From: Jiangella endophytica
GTDB taxonomy: Bacteria; Actinomycetota; Actinomycetes; Jiangellales; Jiangellaceae
Assembly: GCF_003427025.1 (NCBI RefSeq)
Contig: NZ_QVAI01000014.1
Span: forward strand, 1 to 64,000
DNA: 64,000 nt
Direction: 5' to 3'
The position numbers and the translations under genes were made by a program. The number at the start of each line of letters is the position of its first letter. The stretch's first letter is position 1. The notes beneath the pieces are model-generated. The model was not told where the DNA came from. It saw only the letters and a program-made list of their open reading frames with translations, and did not search any database. Shown here in pieces: positions 2,068-9,694 of the stretch.

Positions 2068-3477
2068 CTACCCGCCCAGTCGCTGGAAGTCGACGTCCAG
2101 CAGCCGGCAGACCTGCTCCAGCTCGGCCACGTAGTCGCCGGGGACCGCGTGGATGTGGTTGGCACCGAACCGGGACAGGAACTCGTCGGCCGGGACGTCC
2201 ATGCGGGTGAACGCGTGCGGCCACTCGAACGTCGACTGCCGCGCGAGCTGCTCGTTGACCTCGTCGCCGTAGTCCTCGAATGCGCCGCGCACCACCTGCA
2301 TGCGGTAGCGGCCGCTGTGCCGGGTCAGCCGGGCCAGCGTCATGTCGCCGGGCGCCGCGATGTGGTGCACGGACGCGCCGCCGGCCGGGAAGAAGAACAC
2401 CTCCGGGTACAGGTGGACGCGGCGCAGATTCTCGGCCGGGTCGTCGCTGCGGGCGGCGTACCAGGTGGCGTGCTGGCCGGAGTTGGCCATGTCCCAGATG
2501 TCGCGGTCGGCGTGGTAGTGCCGCACGTCGGCGAAGAGCACCGGGTCGCCGGAGATCAGCTTCAGGATCTGCATGGTCAGCGCGGCGTCCATGTCCGACT
2601 CCGTCGCGGTGACGTGGGTCGCCTTCGGACCCTCCCAGTCGTACGGGTCGTTGAGGAACGCCTCGGTGATGTCCATGGTGGTGAAGTGCGTCGTCAGCTC
2701 CGGCTGGCCCTTGATGCCGGAGAAGTCGAGGTTCCACTCGTCGATCAGCTCACGCACCGCGTGGTACGAGCGGATCTGCCGCTCCAGCAACTCGGGGGTG
2801 AGCTGCTTGCCGTCGTAGTGGACGTTGGCGTGCTTCTCCAGCCACTCCCGGCCGGCCCTGGCGCGCGACGCCTCGACCAGCTCGGACCGGCGGACGATCT
2901 CCCACTGGTCGATCTCCTCGACGTCGACGCCGAAGGTCGCCAGCCACTGGTCGGTGTTCGCGACGGCGGTGTACATGCCCATCGGGCGGCCGCCGAACCG
3001 GCCGAACGTGCTCCCTCGCAGCCCGCCGACCGCCTGCGCCGCGCGGACGTGGACGAGCAGCCGCTCCAGCGTCGCCGGGTCGGCGACGTCGCCCCAGACC
3101 CGGCCGTGGACGCGGCCGATCTGGTCCAGCGCGCCGCCCGCGGCCAGCATGCCGACCATGCCCGGCTGCACGGGGTCGATGTTCGACAGCAGCACCAGCG
3201 GCCCCGGAGTGGCGTCGGCGGCGAGCATGGAGAAGTGCGGGAACGCCCACACCGAGTAGTTGAAGATCGTGACGTCGGGCCGTGCCTCGGCGACCAGCCG
3301 CGCCTGGCTGGACGCCAGCTCGTTGGTCCACACCAGCTCCGGCGCCCGGACCACCTCGTGCCCGGCGCCCTCGAGCGCCGCGGCGATCGCGTCCTCCGAC
3401 GAGCGGGCCCAGTCCGCGATGTCGCGGTGCACGAAATCGCGTCCGTCGGAGATCGTCAACAGGCCGATACGTGCCAC
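2068..3477 (-). CDS. L-fucose/L-arabinose isomerase family protein
   Basis: A 469-residue protein of the fucose/arabinose isomerase superfamily, which interconverts aldoses and ketoses with a divalent metal. The N-terminal Rossmann-like part (MARIGLLTISDGRDFVHRD) precedes a C-terminal region with HYHADRD and acidic residues suited to metal binding. Fucose isomerases of this kind also accept D-arabinose and give D-ribulose; whether this one does is inferred from the island context. The GTG start has a GGGAG ribosome site about 7 nt upstream. The gene is the first of a two-gene unit with the FGGY kinase and has its own promoter and a LacI-type operator upstream (3509-3553). Confidence 0.8.
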   Translation of the reverse strand: MARIGLLTISDGRDFVHRDIADWARSSEDAIAAALEGAGHEVVRAPELVWTNELASSQARLVAEARPDVTIFNYSVWAFPHFSMLAADATPGPLVLLSNIDPVQPGMVGMLAAGGALDQIGRVHGRVWGDVADPATLERLLVHVRAAQAVGGLRGSTFGRFGGRPMGMYTAVANTDQWLATFGVDVEEIDQWEIVRRSELVEASRARAGREWLEKHANVHYDGKQLTPELLERQIRSYHAVRELIDEWNLDFSGIKGQPELTTHFTTMDITEAFLNDPYDWEGPKATHVTATESDMDAALTMQILKLISGDPVLFADVRHYHADRDIWDMANSGQHATWYAARSDDPAENLRRVHLYPEVFFFPAGGASVHHIAAPGDMTLARLTRHSGRYRMQVVRGAFEDYGDEVNEQLARQSTFEWPHAFTRMDVPADEFLSRFGANHIHAVPGDYVAELEQVCRLLDVDFQRLGG

Positions 3478-3508
3478 GAGGCCACTCCCATCACGTCGTC
3501 CACAAGCA

Positions 3509-3520
3509 GAAATCGATTGC
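3509..3520. promoter_or_regulatory. LacI-type operator 1, before the isomerase gene
   Basis: GAAATCGATTGC, an almost perfect palindrome around the central CG shared with three other sites at 3659, 7458 and 8561. It overlaps the inferred transcription start of the isomerase-kinase operon. The central CG is characteristic of LacI/GalR operators. Confidence 0.8.
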
Positions 3521-3524
3521 CCAC

Positions 3525-3553
3525 ACGCTAGGCGAGGCCCCCTCCAGTGTCAA
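3525..3553 (-). promoter_or_regulatory. Promoter of the isomerase-kinase operon
   Basis: Reading the minus strand there is a perfect -35 TTGACA (3553-3548), a 17-nt spacer and a -10 TAGCGT (3530-3525). The expected start point near 3518 falls inside the palindrome at 3509-3520, so a bound repressor would block initiation. Confidence 0.75.
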
Positions 3554-3615
3554 CGCCGGGCCTACCCCGTCACCAGCGATGTCCTGCCATTTCGGCATAC
3601 ATCCAGTCCAGAGTG

Positions 3616-3644
3616 TTGACCGCACTGTTGCGCGGCGTTAACCT
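3616..3644 (+). promoter_or_regulatory. Promoter of the binding-protein/GH172 operon
   Basis: -35 TTGACC (3616-3621), 17-nt spacer, -10 TAACCT (3639-3644). The predicted start is near 3651, just ahead of the palindrome at 3658-3671. It is divergent from the isomerase promoter. Confidence 0.7.
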
Positions 3645-3657
3645 CTGCGTCACAGCA

Positions 3658-3671
3658 AGCAATCGATTGCT
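3658..3671. promoter_or_regulatory. LacI-type operator 2, before the binding-protein gene
   Basis: AGCAATCGATTGCT is a perfect 14-bp palindrome that lies in the 5' leader, 11 nt before the ATG at 3683. It shares the AATCGATT core with operators at 3509, 7458 and 8561. Confidence 0.8.
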
Positions 3672-3682
3672 GAGGAGCGGGC

Positions 3683-4564
3683 ATGCCATCTCCACCCGGT
3701 CACCGGTCCGGACTCCCGTCCGGGCCCGGCCCCGGCCTCGATCCCGCACCCACCCTCGCCCCGAGACCGTCCCGACGGCGCTTCCTCGGCCTGTCCGCGG
3801 CACTGACCGGAGCGATCACCGCGCCCGGCCTGCTGAGCGCGTGCGGCGGCCGATCCGCGTCGGCGTCGGAACCGCTGCAGTTCTGGAACTTCTACGCGCC
3901 CGCACCGAACGAGGACCCGGCTCTGCTGGCCCGGGCCGGCTGGATGCACGACACCGTCGACCGCTGGAACGCCGAGAACGAGCAGCAGATCGAGCTCGTC
4001 TACGCGGCGGCCCTCGGCAGCGAGAAGCTGGCCACCGCGTTCTCCGCGGGCGAAGGCCCGGACATCTTCCTGATCAGCCCCGGTGACATCGCCCGCTACC
4101 TCAACGGGAACGTGCTGGCCGAGATCACCCCGCACCTGACCCAGGAGGCGGTGGACGACTTCTTCGCCGACAACATGGCCACGCGCATGATCGGCGACAA
4201 GGTCTACGCCCTGCCCATGGAGATCGAGCCGCTCGCGCTCTACTACAGCCGGCCGGCGTTCGAACAGGCCGGTCTCTCCGAGGGCGATCTGCCGGCCACC
4301 TGGGACGACCTCATCGCCGTCAGCGACCGGCTCGTGTCAGCCGGCCAGGGCGGCCTGGTCTTCCCGACCACGCAGGACTACTACCAGAACTTCGTCTGGT
4401 ACCCGTGGATGTGGCAGGGCGGCGGCGAGGTCGTCAGCGGAGGCGGCGGCCTCAGCGGCTTCGACTCCGACGGCGCCACCGTCGCCGCGGTGCCGACCCT
4501 GCTGGCGTTCGCGATCTTCCAGCGGCGCATCGTGGAGTCCATCAAGACCTCCGGTATGAAGTGA
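3683..4564 (+). pseudogene. Truncated sugar-ABC binding lipoprotein fused to the tail of a MalG-type permease
   Basis: A 293-residue frame. Residues 1-54 hold a twin-arginine/lipoprotein signal: SRRRFLGLSA at 30-39 and lipobox LLSAC with Cys54. Residues about 60-265 look like the first half of an extracellular sugar-binding protein (QFWNFYAP, GEGPDIFLISPGD, KVYALPME). Family members are usually over 400 residues. From about residue 268 the chain switches to AAVPTLLAFAIFQRRIVES and ends SGMK, which is the C-terminal signature of a MalG/CarB-type ABC permease, not of a binding protein. An in-frame deletion has probably removed the rest of the binding protein, the first permease and nearly all of the second (junction about 4470-4485). 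The product is unlikely to support transport. Confidence 0.75.
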
Positions 4565-4590
4565 CCCCGCTCGACGACGAAGGAGTGCCC

Positions 4591-5688
<1,098 letters not shown>

Positions 5689-5689
5689 C

Positions 5690-7450
5690 GTGCCCGGGCG
5701 GCCGGACCCGGCGGCGATCGGCCGCCGGGCCGTGCTGCTCGGCGGTGCGGCCGCGGCGGCGGGCTGGTCCGGGCTGACCCCGGGCGGACGGCAGCTCGCG
5801 GCGGCGGCTCCGGTTCCGCCGCCGAGCGGGCCCGCCCGTGCGCTGCCGCCGCTCACCAGCACCTTCTTCGCCACCGCGACGGTCGCGTACCAGCGCGAGC
5901 TGGCCACCCCGAGCGACGGCGACCTGTGGCCGGCCACCTGGGCCGACGACGGTGCGCTGTACTCGGCCAACGGCGACGGCCGCGGTTTCTCCGACCAGCC
6001 GTGGTCGGACATCGTCGTGAACCGCGTCGACGGCACCCCGGCCACCGGCATCAGCGGCGCCCGGCTGCCCGCGGGCGACCAGGTCGCGCCGATCTGGGGC
6101 GACCCCGCGCGGTTCAACCGCAAGCCCACCGGCATGGTGGCCGTCGACGGCGACGGTGACGGCCGCGACGAGCTCTACTTGGCCGTGCAGGACCTCCGGC
6201 ACGGCGACGGCGCGTTCGACGAGGCGCCGACGGCGACCATCGTACGCTCCACGGACTACGGCCGCACCTGGCAGTGGGACGCCGCGCCGATGTTCACCGG
6301 CCACGTGTTCACGACGGTGTTCTTCCTCGACTTCGGTCAGAGCAACAGCGGCGCGTCGGCGCTCGGGCCGGACGACGCGGGGTACGTCTACGCGTACGCG
6401 CTGGATCGGAACTGGCGCGACTCGTTCACCGGCATCGTCGCCGACCCGCTGGACCTGTGGCTGGCCCGGGTGCCCGTCGGCGCGGTCACCGACCGGTCGG
6501 CCTGGCGGTTCTTCGCCGGCCTCGACGGCGACCGGCCGGTGTGGAGCGACGACATCGACGCGCGGGCCGCCGTGCTGCACGACGAGCGTCGTGTGCGCCC
6601 CGGTGTGGTCACCCCGGACGGCAACTCCGTGCTCTCCCAGGGCTGCGTCGTGCACAACCCGGCGCTGGGCCGCTACCTGTACCTGTCGTGGACCGAGCAC
6701 ACCTTCGAGTTCTACGAGGCGCCCTCGCCGTGGGGGCCGTGGCGGCTGTTCCTGCACAAGGACTTCGGGCCGTACCCGTGGTGGGGCGACGACCCCGGCA
6801 CGCCCGGCCCGAAGAACGGCGGGTACGGCACCGTGGCGCCGTCGAAGTTCATGAGCGCCGACGGCCGGGAGTTGTGGGTGCAGGCCAACTGGTTCGTCGG
6901 CGTCGGTCACCCGTCGAACACCTACCACTTCTCGCTGCGCCGGCTCCGCCTCGAGCCGTACCGGACGACCGAGCCCGCGAATCCGCGCGATCCCGGCCGC
7001 AACCTGGCCCGCGACGAGCCGGGCGCCGTCGTCGCCGACACGACGTCGCACTACGGGCACGATGCCTACCTGGCCGACGGCCGCGCCGACCTGAGCGAGG
7101 ACAGCTGGAACGGGGCGGCGAAGGACACCGACTGGTGGGGCTACACCTGGCCGCGCGCTCTGAACGTCAACCGGGTCGTCTACACGACGGGCGGGATGTT
7201 CCCCGACGGCGGCTGGTTCGACCTCGCGGACGGCGGCCCGCGTGTGCAGGTGCGCCGCGAGCACGTGTCGCACGACGTCACCGGCCTGGCCGCCGACCCG
7301 CCCTACCCTGCCGACGACACCGCCGGACCGTTCCGGACTTTCACGTTCACCTTCGACGACACCTGGGGCGACGGCGTGCGGCTGATCGGCCGCCCGGGCG
7401 GCGCCGCGCGGTTCACCTCGGTCGCGGAGCTGGAGGTGTACTACGGATAA
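5690..7450 (+). CDS. Secreted (Tat) beta-propeller-like protein related to DUF4185 proteins
   Basis: A 586-residue protein whose N-terminus (GRRAVLLGGAAAAAGW, about residues 11-26) is a twin-arginine export signal. Residues about 65-430 have blades resembling sialidase/DUF4185 propellers, with an Asp-box STDYGRTW near 186 and repeated aromatic/Gly turns. Residues about 440-586 look like a carbohydrate-binding beta-sandwich ending in SVAELEVYYG, as in discoidin-type modules. The GTG start overlaps the end of the GH172 gene region by operon layout, with a 1-nt gap. I infer a secreted glycanase or glycan-binding protein acting with the nearby GH172 and DUF4185 enzymes. The exact family is uncertain. 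Confidence 0.65.
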   Translation: MPGRPDPAAIGRRAVLLGGAAAAAGWSGLTPGGRQLAAAAPVPPPSGPARALPPLTSTFFATATVAYQRELATPSDGDLWPATWADDGALYSANGDGRGFSDQPWSDIVVNRVDGTPATGISGARLPAGDQVAPIWGDPARFNRKPTGMVAVDGDGDGRDELYLAVQDLRHGDGAFDEAPTATIVRSTDYGRTWQWDAAPMFTGHVFTTVFFLDFGQSNSGASALGPDDAGYVYAYALDRNWRDSFTGIVADPLDLWLARVPVGAVTDRSAWRFFAGLDGDRPVWSDDIDARAAVLHDERRVRPGVVTPDGNSVLSQGCVVHNPALGRYLYLSWTEHTFEFYEAPSPWGPWRLFLHKDFGPYPWWGDDPGTPGPKNGGYGTVAPSKFMSADGRELWVQANWFVGVGHPSNTYHFSLRRLRLEPYRTTEPANPRDPGRNLARDEPGAVVADTTSHYGHDAYLADGRADLSEDSWNGAAKDTDWWGYTWPRALNVNRVVYTTGGMFPDGGWFDLADGGPRVQVRREHVSHDVTGLAADPPYPADDTAGPFRTFTFTFDDTWGDGVRLIGRPGGAARFTSVAELEVYYG

Positions 7451-7457
7451 TTGCTCG

Positions 7458-7469
7458 GAAATCGATTCC
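7458..7469. promoter_or_regulatory. LacI-type operator 3, before the lacI-type gene
   Basis: GAAATCGATTCC, one mismatch from palindromic, lies between the end of the propeller gene and the regulator gene, 53 nt before its GTG. This suggests that the repressor controls its own gene. A possible -10 TAGGAT is at 7479-7484. Confidence 0.7.
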
Positions 7470-7521: not shown

Positions 7522-8523
7522 GTGGTCACGATCTACGACGTCGCCCGCCACGCCGGGGTCTCGGCGGCCACGGTCTCGCGCGTGCTCAACGGCCACACCC
7601 AGGTCGACCCCGCCCTGGCGGAGCGGGTCACGTCGTCCGTCGCCGAGCTGGGCTACCGCCGCAACGCCGTCGCCCGCAACCTGCGCCGCAGCCGCACCAC
7701 GCTGTGGGCGGTCATCATCTCCGACGTCGAGAACCCGTTCTTCACCGCCATGGTCCGCGGCGTCGAGGACATCGCGCTGGCCGCCGGGTACTCCGTCGTG
7801 CTCTGCAACAGCGACGAGAACCCGGAGAAGGAGTCCAACTACATCGCCGCGGCGCTCACCGAGCAGATGGCCGGCGTCATCATCTCGCCGTCGTCCAACC
7901 GCGTCGACGACGTCAAACTGCTGCTCGACGCCGGCTGCCCGGTCATCGTCATCGACCGCGAACTGCAGGGGCCGCGCACCGACACCGTCCTGGTCGACAA
8001 CGAGCACGGCGCCGAACTGGCCACCACCCACCTCGTCGAGCAGGGCTACCGCCGCATCGCCTGCATCGGCGGGCCACGCTGGCTCAGCACCGCCACCTCG
8101 CGCTACGACGGCTACCGGCGCGCGCTCGCCACGGCCGGGCTGCCGCTGGACCCCGCGCTGGTGCGGTACGCCGACTTCCGCGAGCGCGGCGGCTACGAGG
8201 CCATGGCGTCGCTGCTCGACGACGGCGCCGAGCCCGACGCGCTGTTCGCGGCGAACAACCTCATGACGGTCGGCGCCCTCGAGTGCCTGGTGCAGCGTTC
8301 GCGCGCCATTCCGTCCGACATCGCCGTGGTGGGCTTCGACTCCATCCCGTGGGCCGACCTCATCCGGCCCACGCTGACGACGGTGGCGCAGCCGGCCTAC
8401 GAGGTCGGCCGGCAGGCCGGCCAGCTGCTCACCCGGCGGCTGACCAAGCCCGGCGCCGACGTCACCCGCGTCGTGCTGCCCACGGAGCTGCAGGTGCGGG
8501 CCAGCTCGATCCGGCAGGCCTGA
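7522..8523 (+). CDS. LacI-family transcriptional repressor of the glycan island
   Basis: A 333-residue regulator. The N-terminal helix-turn-helix (VTIYDVARHAGVSAATVSRV, then LNGHTQVD) and hinge (RRNAVARNLRR) are textbook LacI/GalR. Residues about 60-330 form the periplasmic-binding-like ligand domain (VIISDVENPFFTAMV, VVGFDSIPWADLIRP). Four copies of an AATCGATT-centred palindrome flank or precede the surrounding transcription units, including this gene, which points to local and autogenous repression. The inducer is presumably a sugar released from the target glycan; it cannot be named from sequence. The GTG start has a strong GAGGGAGGGGG site upstream. Confidence 0.9.
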   Translation: MVTIYDVARHAGVSAATVSRVLNGHTQVDPALAERVTSSVAELGYRRNAVARNLRRSRTTLWAVIISDVENPFFTAMVRGVEDIALAAGYSVVLCNSDENPEKESNYIAAALTEQMAGVIISPSSNRVDDVKLLLDAGCPVIVIDRELQGPRTDTVLVDNEHGAELATTHLVEQGYRRIACIGGPRWLSTATSRYDGYRRALATAGLPLDPALVRYADFRERGGYEAMASLLDDGAEPDALFAANNLMTVGALECLVQRSRAIPSDIAVVGFDSIPWADLIRPTLTTVAQPAYEVGRQAGQLLTRRLTKPGADVTRVVLPTELQVRASSIRQA

Positions 8524-8559: not shown

Positions 8560-8573
8560 GGAAATCGATTTCC
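8560..8573. promoter_or_regulatory. LacI-type operator 4, before the DUF4185 gene
   Basis: GGAAATCGATTTCC is a perfect 14-bp palindrome with the AATCGATT core seen at 3509, 3658 and 7458. It covers the expected start point of the DUF4185 gene. Confidence 0.85.
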
Positions 8574-8602: not shown

Positions 8603-9694
8603 GTGCGACCCCTGATGACGACCGTCACCGGCGCCGGCGTGGTGCTCGCCGCCGCCCTCGTCGCCTCCGCCGCCGAGCCCGAGTCCGCGTCACCGGCCGA
8701 CGGCGTGGGCGTCACGCGCGGCGAGCCGGTGGCGCTGCTCACCGGCGCCGGCTCGATCAACGAGACCGCCGCGAACTACCAGGTGCACGCCACCGACCTG
8801 GGCATCATGTGGGACAACGACGCCGGCGAGGTGCTGATGGCCTTCGGCGACACCTACGGCGAGGGCTGGGGCGGCAACGGCGCCGGGCCGCGCGAGGCGG
8901 ACTGGCGCTGCAACGTGCTGGCGACGTCGTCCGACCGCGACCTCGCCGACGGCATGGCGTTCGACACCATGGTGCAGGACCGCCCCGGCCACGCCGGCCA
9001 GCTGCTGGACTGCCTGAAGCAGAACGGCGTCGAGGAGACGGTCATCCCGACCGCCGGCATCGCGGTCGACGGCCGCAGCTTCATCCACTACATGTCGGTG
9101 AACCACTGGGGCCCGGCCGGCACCTGGTTCACCAACCACTCCGGCATCGCCTGGTCCGACGACGACGGCGAGACGTGGACGAAGGACCCTGACGCCGTCT
9201 GGCCGAACACGCCGGAGTGGGACAACGACTTCCAGATGACCGCATTCGCCCGGCACGGCGGCCACGTCTACCTGTTCGGCACGCCGAACGGCCGCTGGGG
9301 CGACGCGCACGTGGCCCGCGTCGCGGCCGGCAAGGTGCTGGACAAGGACGCGTACCGCTACTGGGACGGAGCCGGCTGGTCGCGTTCGGAGGCCGCCGCC
9401 GCGCCCGTCGCCGAGGGCCCGATCGGCGAGCTGTCCGTGCAGTACAACGAGTACACCGGCCGCTGGCTGATGACCTACCTCGACGAGTCGCGGGCCCAGA
9501 TCGTGCTGCGCGACGCGCCCCGCCCGACCGGCCCCTGGGGCGACGAGCAGGTCCTCGTCGACGGCGCGGAGTACCCGGCGCTGTACGGCGGCTTCCTGCA
9601 CCCGTGGTCCAGCGGGCCGGACCTGTATTTCGCGCTCACCCAGTGGGGTCCGTACAACGTGACGCTGATGCGCTCGACACTCACACCGCGGTGA
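8603..9694 (+). CDS. Secreted DUF4185 (GH183-like) protein, putative endo-D-arabinanase
   Basis: A 363-residue protein with a signal peptide (GVVLAAALVASAA, residues about 12-24) and a single DUF4185 propeller domain from about 45 to the end. Visible marks are HATDLGIMWDNDAGEVLMAF, the GDTYG turn, an Asp-box SDDDGETW near residue 185 and NDFQMTAFA. DUF4185 proteins are classed in GH183, whose studied members are endo-D-arabinanases that cut arabinogalactan or lipoarabinomannan. The GTG start is preceded by GAAGGAG. It has its own promoter and operator, so it belongs to the LacI-type regulon. Its stop overlaps the convergent gene by 14 nt. Substrate assignment is by family, not by visible residues. 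Confidence 0.8.
   Translation: MRPLMTTVTGAGVVLAAALVASAAEPESASPADGVGVTRGEPVALLTGAGSINETAANYQVHATDLGIMWDNDAGEVLMAFGDTYGEGWGGNGAGPREADWRCNVLATSSDRDLADGMAFDTMVQDRPGHAGQLLDCLKQNGVEETVIPTAGIAVDGRSFIHYMSVNHWGPAGTWFTNHSGIAWSDDDGETWTKDPDAVWPNTPEWDNDFQMTAFARHGGHVYLFGTPNGRWGDAHVARVAAGKVLDKDAYRYWDGAGWSRSEAAAAPVAEGPIGELSVQYNEYTGRWLMTYLDESRAQIVLRDAPRPTGPWGDEQVLVDGAEYPALYGGFLHPWSSGPDLYFALTQWGPYNVTLMRSTLTPR

Follow-up and report, generated by a model that had tools for sequence, protein, structure and literature searches.

This locus raises the question of how an open reading frame of Jiangella endophytica came to join the front of a sugar-binding lipoprotein to the end of a permease. The window is the whole stretch of DNA that was analysed, 64,000 nucleotides corresponding to positions 1-64000 of contig C6 in a 7.85-Mb genome of 89 contigs (G000). 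A check of its open reading frames placed a frame of 293 amino acids exactly at 3683-4564, in which residues 1-265 of the lipoprotein (SBP1) are followed in frame by the last 28 residues of a MalG-type permease. The SBP1 remnant (3683-4477, plus strand, codons 1-265 of the substrate-binding lipoprotein gene) was recognized by its Pfam match to SBP_bac_1 and by comparison with relatives, being 77-90% identical over its length to full-length genes of six Jiangella genomes. A Tat motif (SRRRFLGL) and a lipobox (LLSAC) were read by eye in its translation. The malG remnant (4478-4564, plus strand) comprises the last 28 codons and the native stop at 4562-4564, to which the stub frame runs; it was placed by its C-terminal identity and by the blastn right flank, which starts at 4471-4475 in the six intact relatives. 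In a script comparison, the last 27 of the 28 residues after the join were identical to the MalG C-terminus of the intact genome G010 (27/27). The Pfam match and the MalG identity bear out the fusion described in the earlier note, which had put the permease tail slightly shorter, at about 26 residues.

Neither part of the stub is complete. The SBP_bac_1 match extends over protein residues 92-271 and over profile positions 14-194 of 307, against 8-302 of 307 for intact SBP1 of G010; of the permease only the last 28 residues remain, and the Pfam scan gave no BPD_transp_1 match in the stub. Since the latter half of the binding-protein profile and the permease domain are both gone from it, the stub was taken as a pseudogene, most likely a recent and non-functional one. 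Promoter and terminator scans of 3400-5000 returned nothing. Both parts derive from genes of a carbohydrate ABC importer of the CUT1 family (MalEFG type), of which, compared with such importers, no complete component is left at the window locus.

The same locus was compared in a sample of 12 Jiangella genomes, that of the window included. Using SBP1 of G010 as the query, a full-length gene was found in six of the 12 at 83-100% identity (G010 being one of the six) and a partial gene in two, G000 and G004; the remaining four hold only relatives of 37-44%. The six are G010, J. muralis (G009), J. aurantiaca (G007), J. rhizosphaerae (G002), J. asiatica (G006) and G003. In each of them SBP1 lies intact at the same place, directly followed by malF and malG (6/6), and in five GH172 comes next after malG, the contig of J. 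aurantiaca ending just past that gene. Both sides of the join align to this one contiguous locus in six species, a match which, on the alignments, is well beyond chance. Relative to the six, G000 lacks 2358, 2367, 2370, 2370, 2379 or 2382 bp, in every case a multiple of three and a little less than the 2.5 kb or so that had been proposed. The junction was located at 4474-4477 (plus strand) by comparison with the six relatives, inside the range of 4470-4490 suggested beforehand, and three to four bases at the join are common to both parental sequences.

This is the pattern of an ordinary short-homology deletion, and the stub is best explained as the scar of a single in-frame deletion that removed the C-terminal half of SBP1, MalF and nearly all of MalG, an explanation to which, taken as a whole, we assign a probability of about 0.86. 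As the frame is kept by chance in one of three deletions, no selection need be invoked. The earlier note had anticipated a transporter removed with its enzymes left behind, which is what the locus contains, and had held that a relative carrying the same fusion would speak against a deletion; the fusion was found in none of the 11 other Jiangella genomes. A search of G000 for further copies of the lost genes found none, the best-scoring other SBP, MalF and MalG reaching 29, 42 and 39%, respectively. The loss of SBP1-MalF-MalG is probably recent.

Translation downstream of the deletion was probably spared, judging from the local sequence. From the malG stop to codon 10 of GH172, 96 bases were counted in G000 and 101 in intact G010, and an AAGGAG stretch at 4580-4585 is followed by GTG at 4591, the inferred start of GH172. 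Because the stub ends at malG's own stop and the spacing to GH172 is near normal, reading of the downstream gene was probably left undisturbed.

D-arabinan is an unusual sugar polymer of mycobacterial cell walls, and the genes around the stub point to its digestion, an identity that the earlier note had not given to the island and that is made here. Upstream, on the minus strand, lie an FGGY carbohydrate kinase (596-2056; FGGY_N and FGGY_C domains) and an L-fucose isomerase-family protein (2068-3477; Fucose_iso N1, N2 and C domains), for which the context suggests the roles of D-ribulokinase and D-arabinose isomerase. The kinase scores below all 12 NCBIfam cut-offs listed, xylulokinase being nearest, and the isomerase likewise stays under every cut-off listed, far below those of fucI. 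Downstream, on the plus strand, GH172 (DUF2961; 4591-5688) is a candidate exo-alpha-D-arabinofuranosidase according to Pfam and to its best solved relative, the exo-alpha-D-arabinofuranosidase 8ic8 (E 7.8e-147, searched with 4633-5685); the next best, the difructose dianhydride I synthase/hydrolase 7v1v, gave E 3.8e-42. No signal peptide was seen on GH172 by eye. It is followed by DUF4185a (5690-7450), a divergent member of the DUF4185 family whose N-terminus looks Tat-like by eye; its weak family match gave 38.9 bits against a cut-off of 39.5 in one scan and 40.4 in another, and it has no solved relative in PDB at E 0.001. After a LacI-family regulator (7522-8523; Pfam) comes GH183 (DUF4185; 8603-9694; Pfam E 4.2e-123), a candidate endo-D-arabinanase with a signal-like N-terminus (by eye), whose best solved relative is the endo-alpha-D-arabinanase 8hhv (E 1.1e-97). 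The Asp altered in the mutant 8ic1 is conserved in the window GH183; 8ic1 is a D51N mutant according to PMC10509167. A genome search gave one GH172 and two DUF4185 matches in G000, all within the island. Among the parts of a D-arabinan locus, GH183 and GH172 were recognized by sequence, the isomerase and the pentulose kinase at family level only, and the ABC importer as the remnants at 3683-4564.

In gene content the island looks built for D-arabinan digestion and fits the pathway of Microbacterium arabinogalactanolyticum as set out in PMC10509167. Both loci have GH183, GH172, an isomerase and a kinase, and ExoMA1 (8ic8) and EndoMA1 (8hhv) of M. arabinogalactanolyticum are the best solved relatives of the window GH172 and GH183. 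According to that account, the M. arabinogalactanolyticum locus includes an ABC importer whose binding protein is of the SBP_bac type, whereas the importer of the window is deleted; set against that locus, the window genome has its GH116 in a second, unlinked operon, frame-shifted, and the Jiangella island has predicted LacI-type operator control. By analogy with Microbacterium, secreted GH183 enzymes would cut the D-arabinan of mycobacterial-type walls, the importer of the intact locus would take up D-arabino-oligosaccharides, cytoplasmic GH172 would trim these to D-arabinose, and the isomerase and kinase would feed D-ribulose-5-phosphate to central metabolism. One deletion has stripped the importer from the island, leaving the enzymes in place. 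That the importer belongs to this pathway is argued by homologues of SBP1-MalF-MalG that adjoin GH172 outside Jiangella too, in Haloactinopolyspora alba (G018, another genus), one MAG and two Streptomyces. The island is an importer mutant made by nature, in a pathway whose predicted target is the mycobacterial type of cell wall, and a second species has lost its importer independently. In the limited collection of literature searched, no publication joining D-arabinose, D-arabinan, LacI and ABC transporter was found, nor one on arabinan or GH172 that mentions Jiangella.

The intact Jiangella islands share gene order and operator sites with the window and differ from it in their complete SBP1-MalF-MalG. 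Protein identities to the window, taken where the contig holds the gene (that of J. aurantiaca ends after malG and that of J. rhizosphaerae after GH172), were 78-98% for the SBP1 stub, GH172, LacI, isomerase and kinase and 75-87% for GH183. DUF4185a, compared without these two species, whose contigs end before it, lies between GH172 and lacI in G000 and G010 and is partly left in G004; J. muralis and G003 are without it at that place, and J. asiatica has a 42-residue match.

The island also carries a shared palindrome, GNAATCGATTNC. A palindrome search of the window gave four copies, all in the island (mean of shuffles 0.01), at 3509-3520, at 3659-3670 just upstream of the SBP1 start, at 7458-7469 and at 8561-8572. 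Its palindromic form and the LacI gene of the island suggest that it is a LacI-family operator, of which that regulator would be the reader. In the whole genome it occurs at six places, the four of the island and two outside it (C16:36427 and C16:36606), and the reversed-pattern control gave none in G000. Across the 12 Jiangella genomes GNAATCGATTNC was found at 2-12 places per genome, with no reversed-pattern controls, which makes it usable to map the predicted regulon genus-wide and to seek further D-arabinan genes in actinobacteria. As an event the deletion is ordinary, and what adds modestly to its interest is the locus, together with the regulon that this operator defines.

In G000 the two outside sites precede an unlinked operon on C16, SBP2-MalF2-MalG2-membrane protein-GH116. 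SBP2 is present in seven of the 12 Jiangella genomes, that of the window included, at 93-95% in the six others, and is only about 28% similar to part of SBP1; SBP1 and SBP2 are two candidate binding proteins for D-arabino-oligosaccharides. The pair of sites precedes SBP2 in G000, G010, J. muralis, J. rhizosphaerae, G008 and G004, and a single site does so in G005. For GH116 of G010, the best solved relative was the exo-beta-D-arabinofuranosidase 8ic6 (E 3.1e-112; next 1.9e-23). GH116 of G000 (L074:5798-8376, on C16, minus strand) is split over two frames, whereas the gene is in one frame in G010, J. rhizosphaerae, J. muralis, G004 and G005 (the first four also aligned separately). The break in G000 is either a real lesion or a base-call error; counting it, this genome has damage to two parts of the predicted regulon, importer 1 and GH116. 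In G008, GH116 (L086:5593-6218) is in pieces, a large hole having taken most of its catalytic part, and the predicted regulon has a lesion in that genome as well. The best-scoring MalF relative left in G000 (C34:441069, 42%, L062) was considered as a substitute importer and not preferred. The locus has no operator site, and a tblastn search of L062 with the proteins of the island matched relatives of MalF, MalG and LacI and nothing else. L062 has 26 open reading frames of at least 260 amino acids; among the seven of these that were scanned were a LacI, a lectin/CBM protein, an AbiEi-like protein and two solute-binding proteins, and the other two had no match.

The importer has also gone from the same island in G004 (L033), with other endpoints. 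There, SBP1 matches to about residue 350 with a frame change and is followed by DUF4185a at residue 413; no GH172, MalF or MalG matches remain in that island, and GH183 of G004 is interrupted by a gap from residue 231 to 264. Lost in G004 but present in G000 are the malG tail, GH172 and the DUF4185a front; conversely, G004 keeps a part of SBP1 lost in G000. As each genome retains what the other lost, neither deletion derives from the other and the two losses are independent. A phylogeny built from the isomerase, the kinase and the SBP stub makes G010 the sister of G004 (support 0.999) and places G000 in a group with J. aurantiaca and J. rhizosphaerae (0.919), the importer being intact in all three neighbours; a tree of two housekeeping genes, made without J. 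aurantiaca and J. rhizosphaerae, also joined G004 and G010 (0.993). G004 has a second cluster of D-arabinan type (L063:5305-15446, on G004:C3) with a GH172 94% like that of the window, a LacI, DUF4185 genes and a different importer, and a cluster of the same kind occurs in G005 (L064, on G005:C227); one operator site lies inside this type of second cluster.

Two readings would do away with the deletion or with the loss of function. The first is an assembly error, by which an importer present in the organism was dropped from the contig. The 89 contigs and an estimated contamination of 2.47% would allow such an error, but the lost genes are nowhere else in an assembly rated 99.99% complete, the malG stop and GH172 lie about as far apart as usual, and three to four shared bases are probably too short to collapse a k-mer assembly, which makes mis-assembly very improbable. 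A smaller chance still is given to the fusion as a functional new protein, e.g. a membrane-held half binding protein. Start, stop, frame, Tat motif and lipobox are all kept, and the dN/dS of the stub on the window branch is low (0.14-0.17, bootstrap limits 0.05-0.40); against it, the binding protein lacks the latter half of its profile, the fusion occurs in one of 12 Jiangella genomes, and one of three random deletions keeps the frame anyway. In this test of low power and wide limits no relaxed selection was found on the stub along the window branch; the low value agrees with a recent loss, and it could also be seen if some function had been kept. Branch values were likewise obtained for the isomerase (0.05-0.11), kinase (0.11-0.14), GH172 (0.14-0.16), LacI (0.07-0.15) and GH183 (0.25-0.44, limits 0.13-1.02, with 0.24 in G010 and 0.41 in J. 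muralis), DUF4185a being left out.

Given the deletion, what remains to be weighed is how the island now stands. Where the earlier note had spoken of another transporter or a relic, the unlinked SBP2 operon is a concrete candidate for the former, and the GH116 frame-shift is evidence for the latter as well. The shared operator sites argue for importer 2 being part of the same predicted regulon, and no other importer is as good a candidate for serving the island; whatever uptake remains may, less certainly, be carried by this operon. That SBP2-MalF2-MalG2-GH116 supplies import in trans, so that importer 1 was redundant and could be lost, we put at even odds. In its favour, the G000 sites that lie outside the island are all in front of this operon, SBP2 is widely kept at high identity, the GH116 gene of the operon has a G010 homologue resembling an exo-beta-D-arabinofuranosidase, and both genomes that lost importer 1 carry SBP2. 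This last point is uninformative, however, because five of the eight SBP1-bearing species have SBP2, and by hand calculation 10 of 28 draws would give it to both losers. Moreover, the frame-shifted GH116 suggests that the operon may itself be decaying, and G004 has a third importer inside its second cluster. The wider picture, a two-locus D-arabinan regulon under one LacI-type operator, in which the island importer is replaced in trans by that of the GH116 operon and importers are modules lost, swapped and duplicated independently of the enzymes, is put forward tentatively, at slightly under an even chance. Early decay of the pathway is a serious rival, possible although distinctly short of probable: the whole would be a relic that lost its importer first, with GH116 frame-shifted and the other enzymes still without lesions. 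The two frames of GH116 in G000 against one in five relatives, the lack of a second cluster of GH172 and DUF4185 enzymes in G000, unlike G004, and the several lesions in the same island of G004 argue for it. Against it stand the full length, relative to other species, of the kinase, isomerase, GH172, both DUF4185 genes and LacI, the unraised dN/dS of kinase, isomerase, GH172 and LacI, that of GH183 being like other branches (0.24-0.41), and the retention of all four island operator sites.

A further arrangement was observed in G008 (L067, G008:C1:2245000-2262000), where the same chromosomal position holds an isomerase, a kinase and a GH183 92-98% like those of the window, but neither the importer (SBP 34%) nor GH172 (34%) corresponds, which amounts to an exchange of modules within the island.
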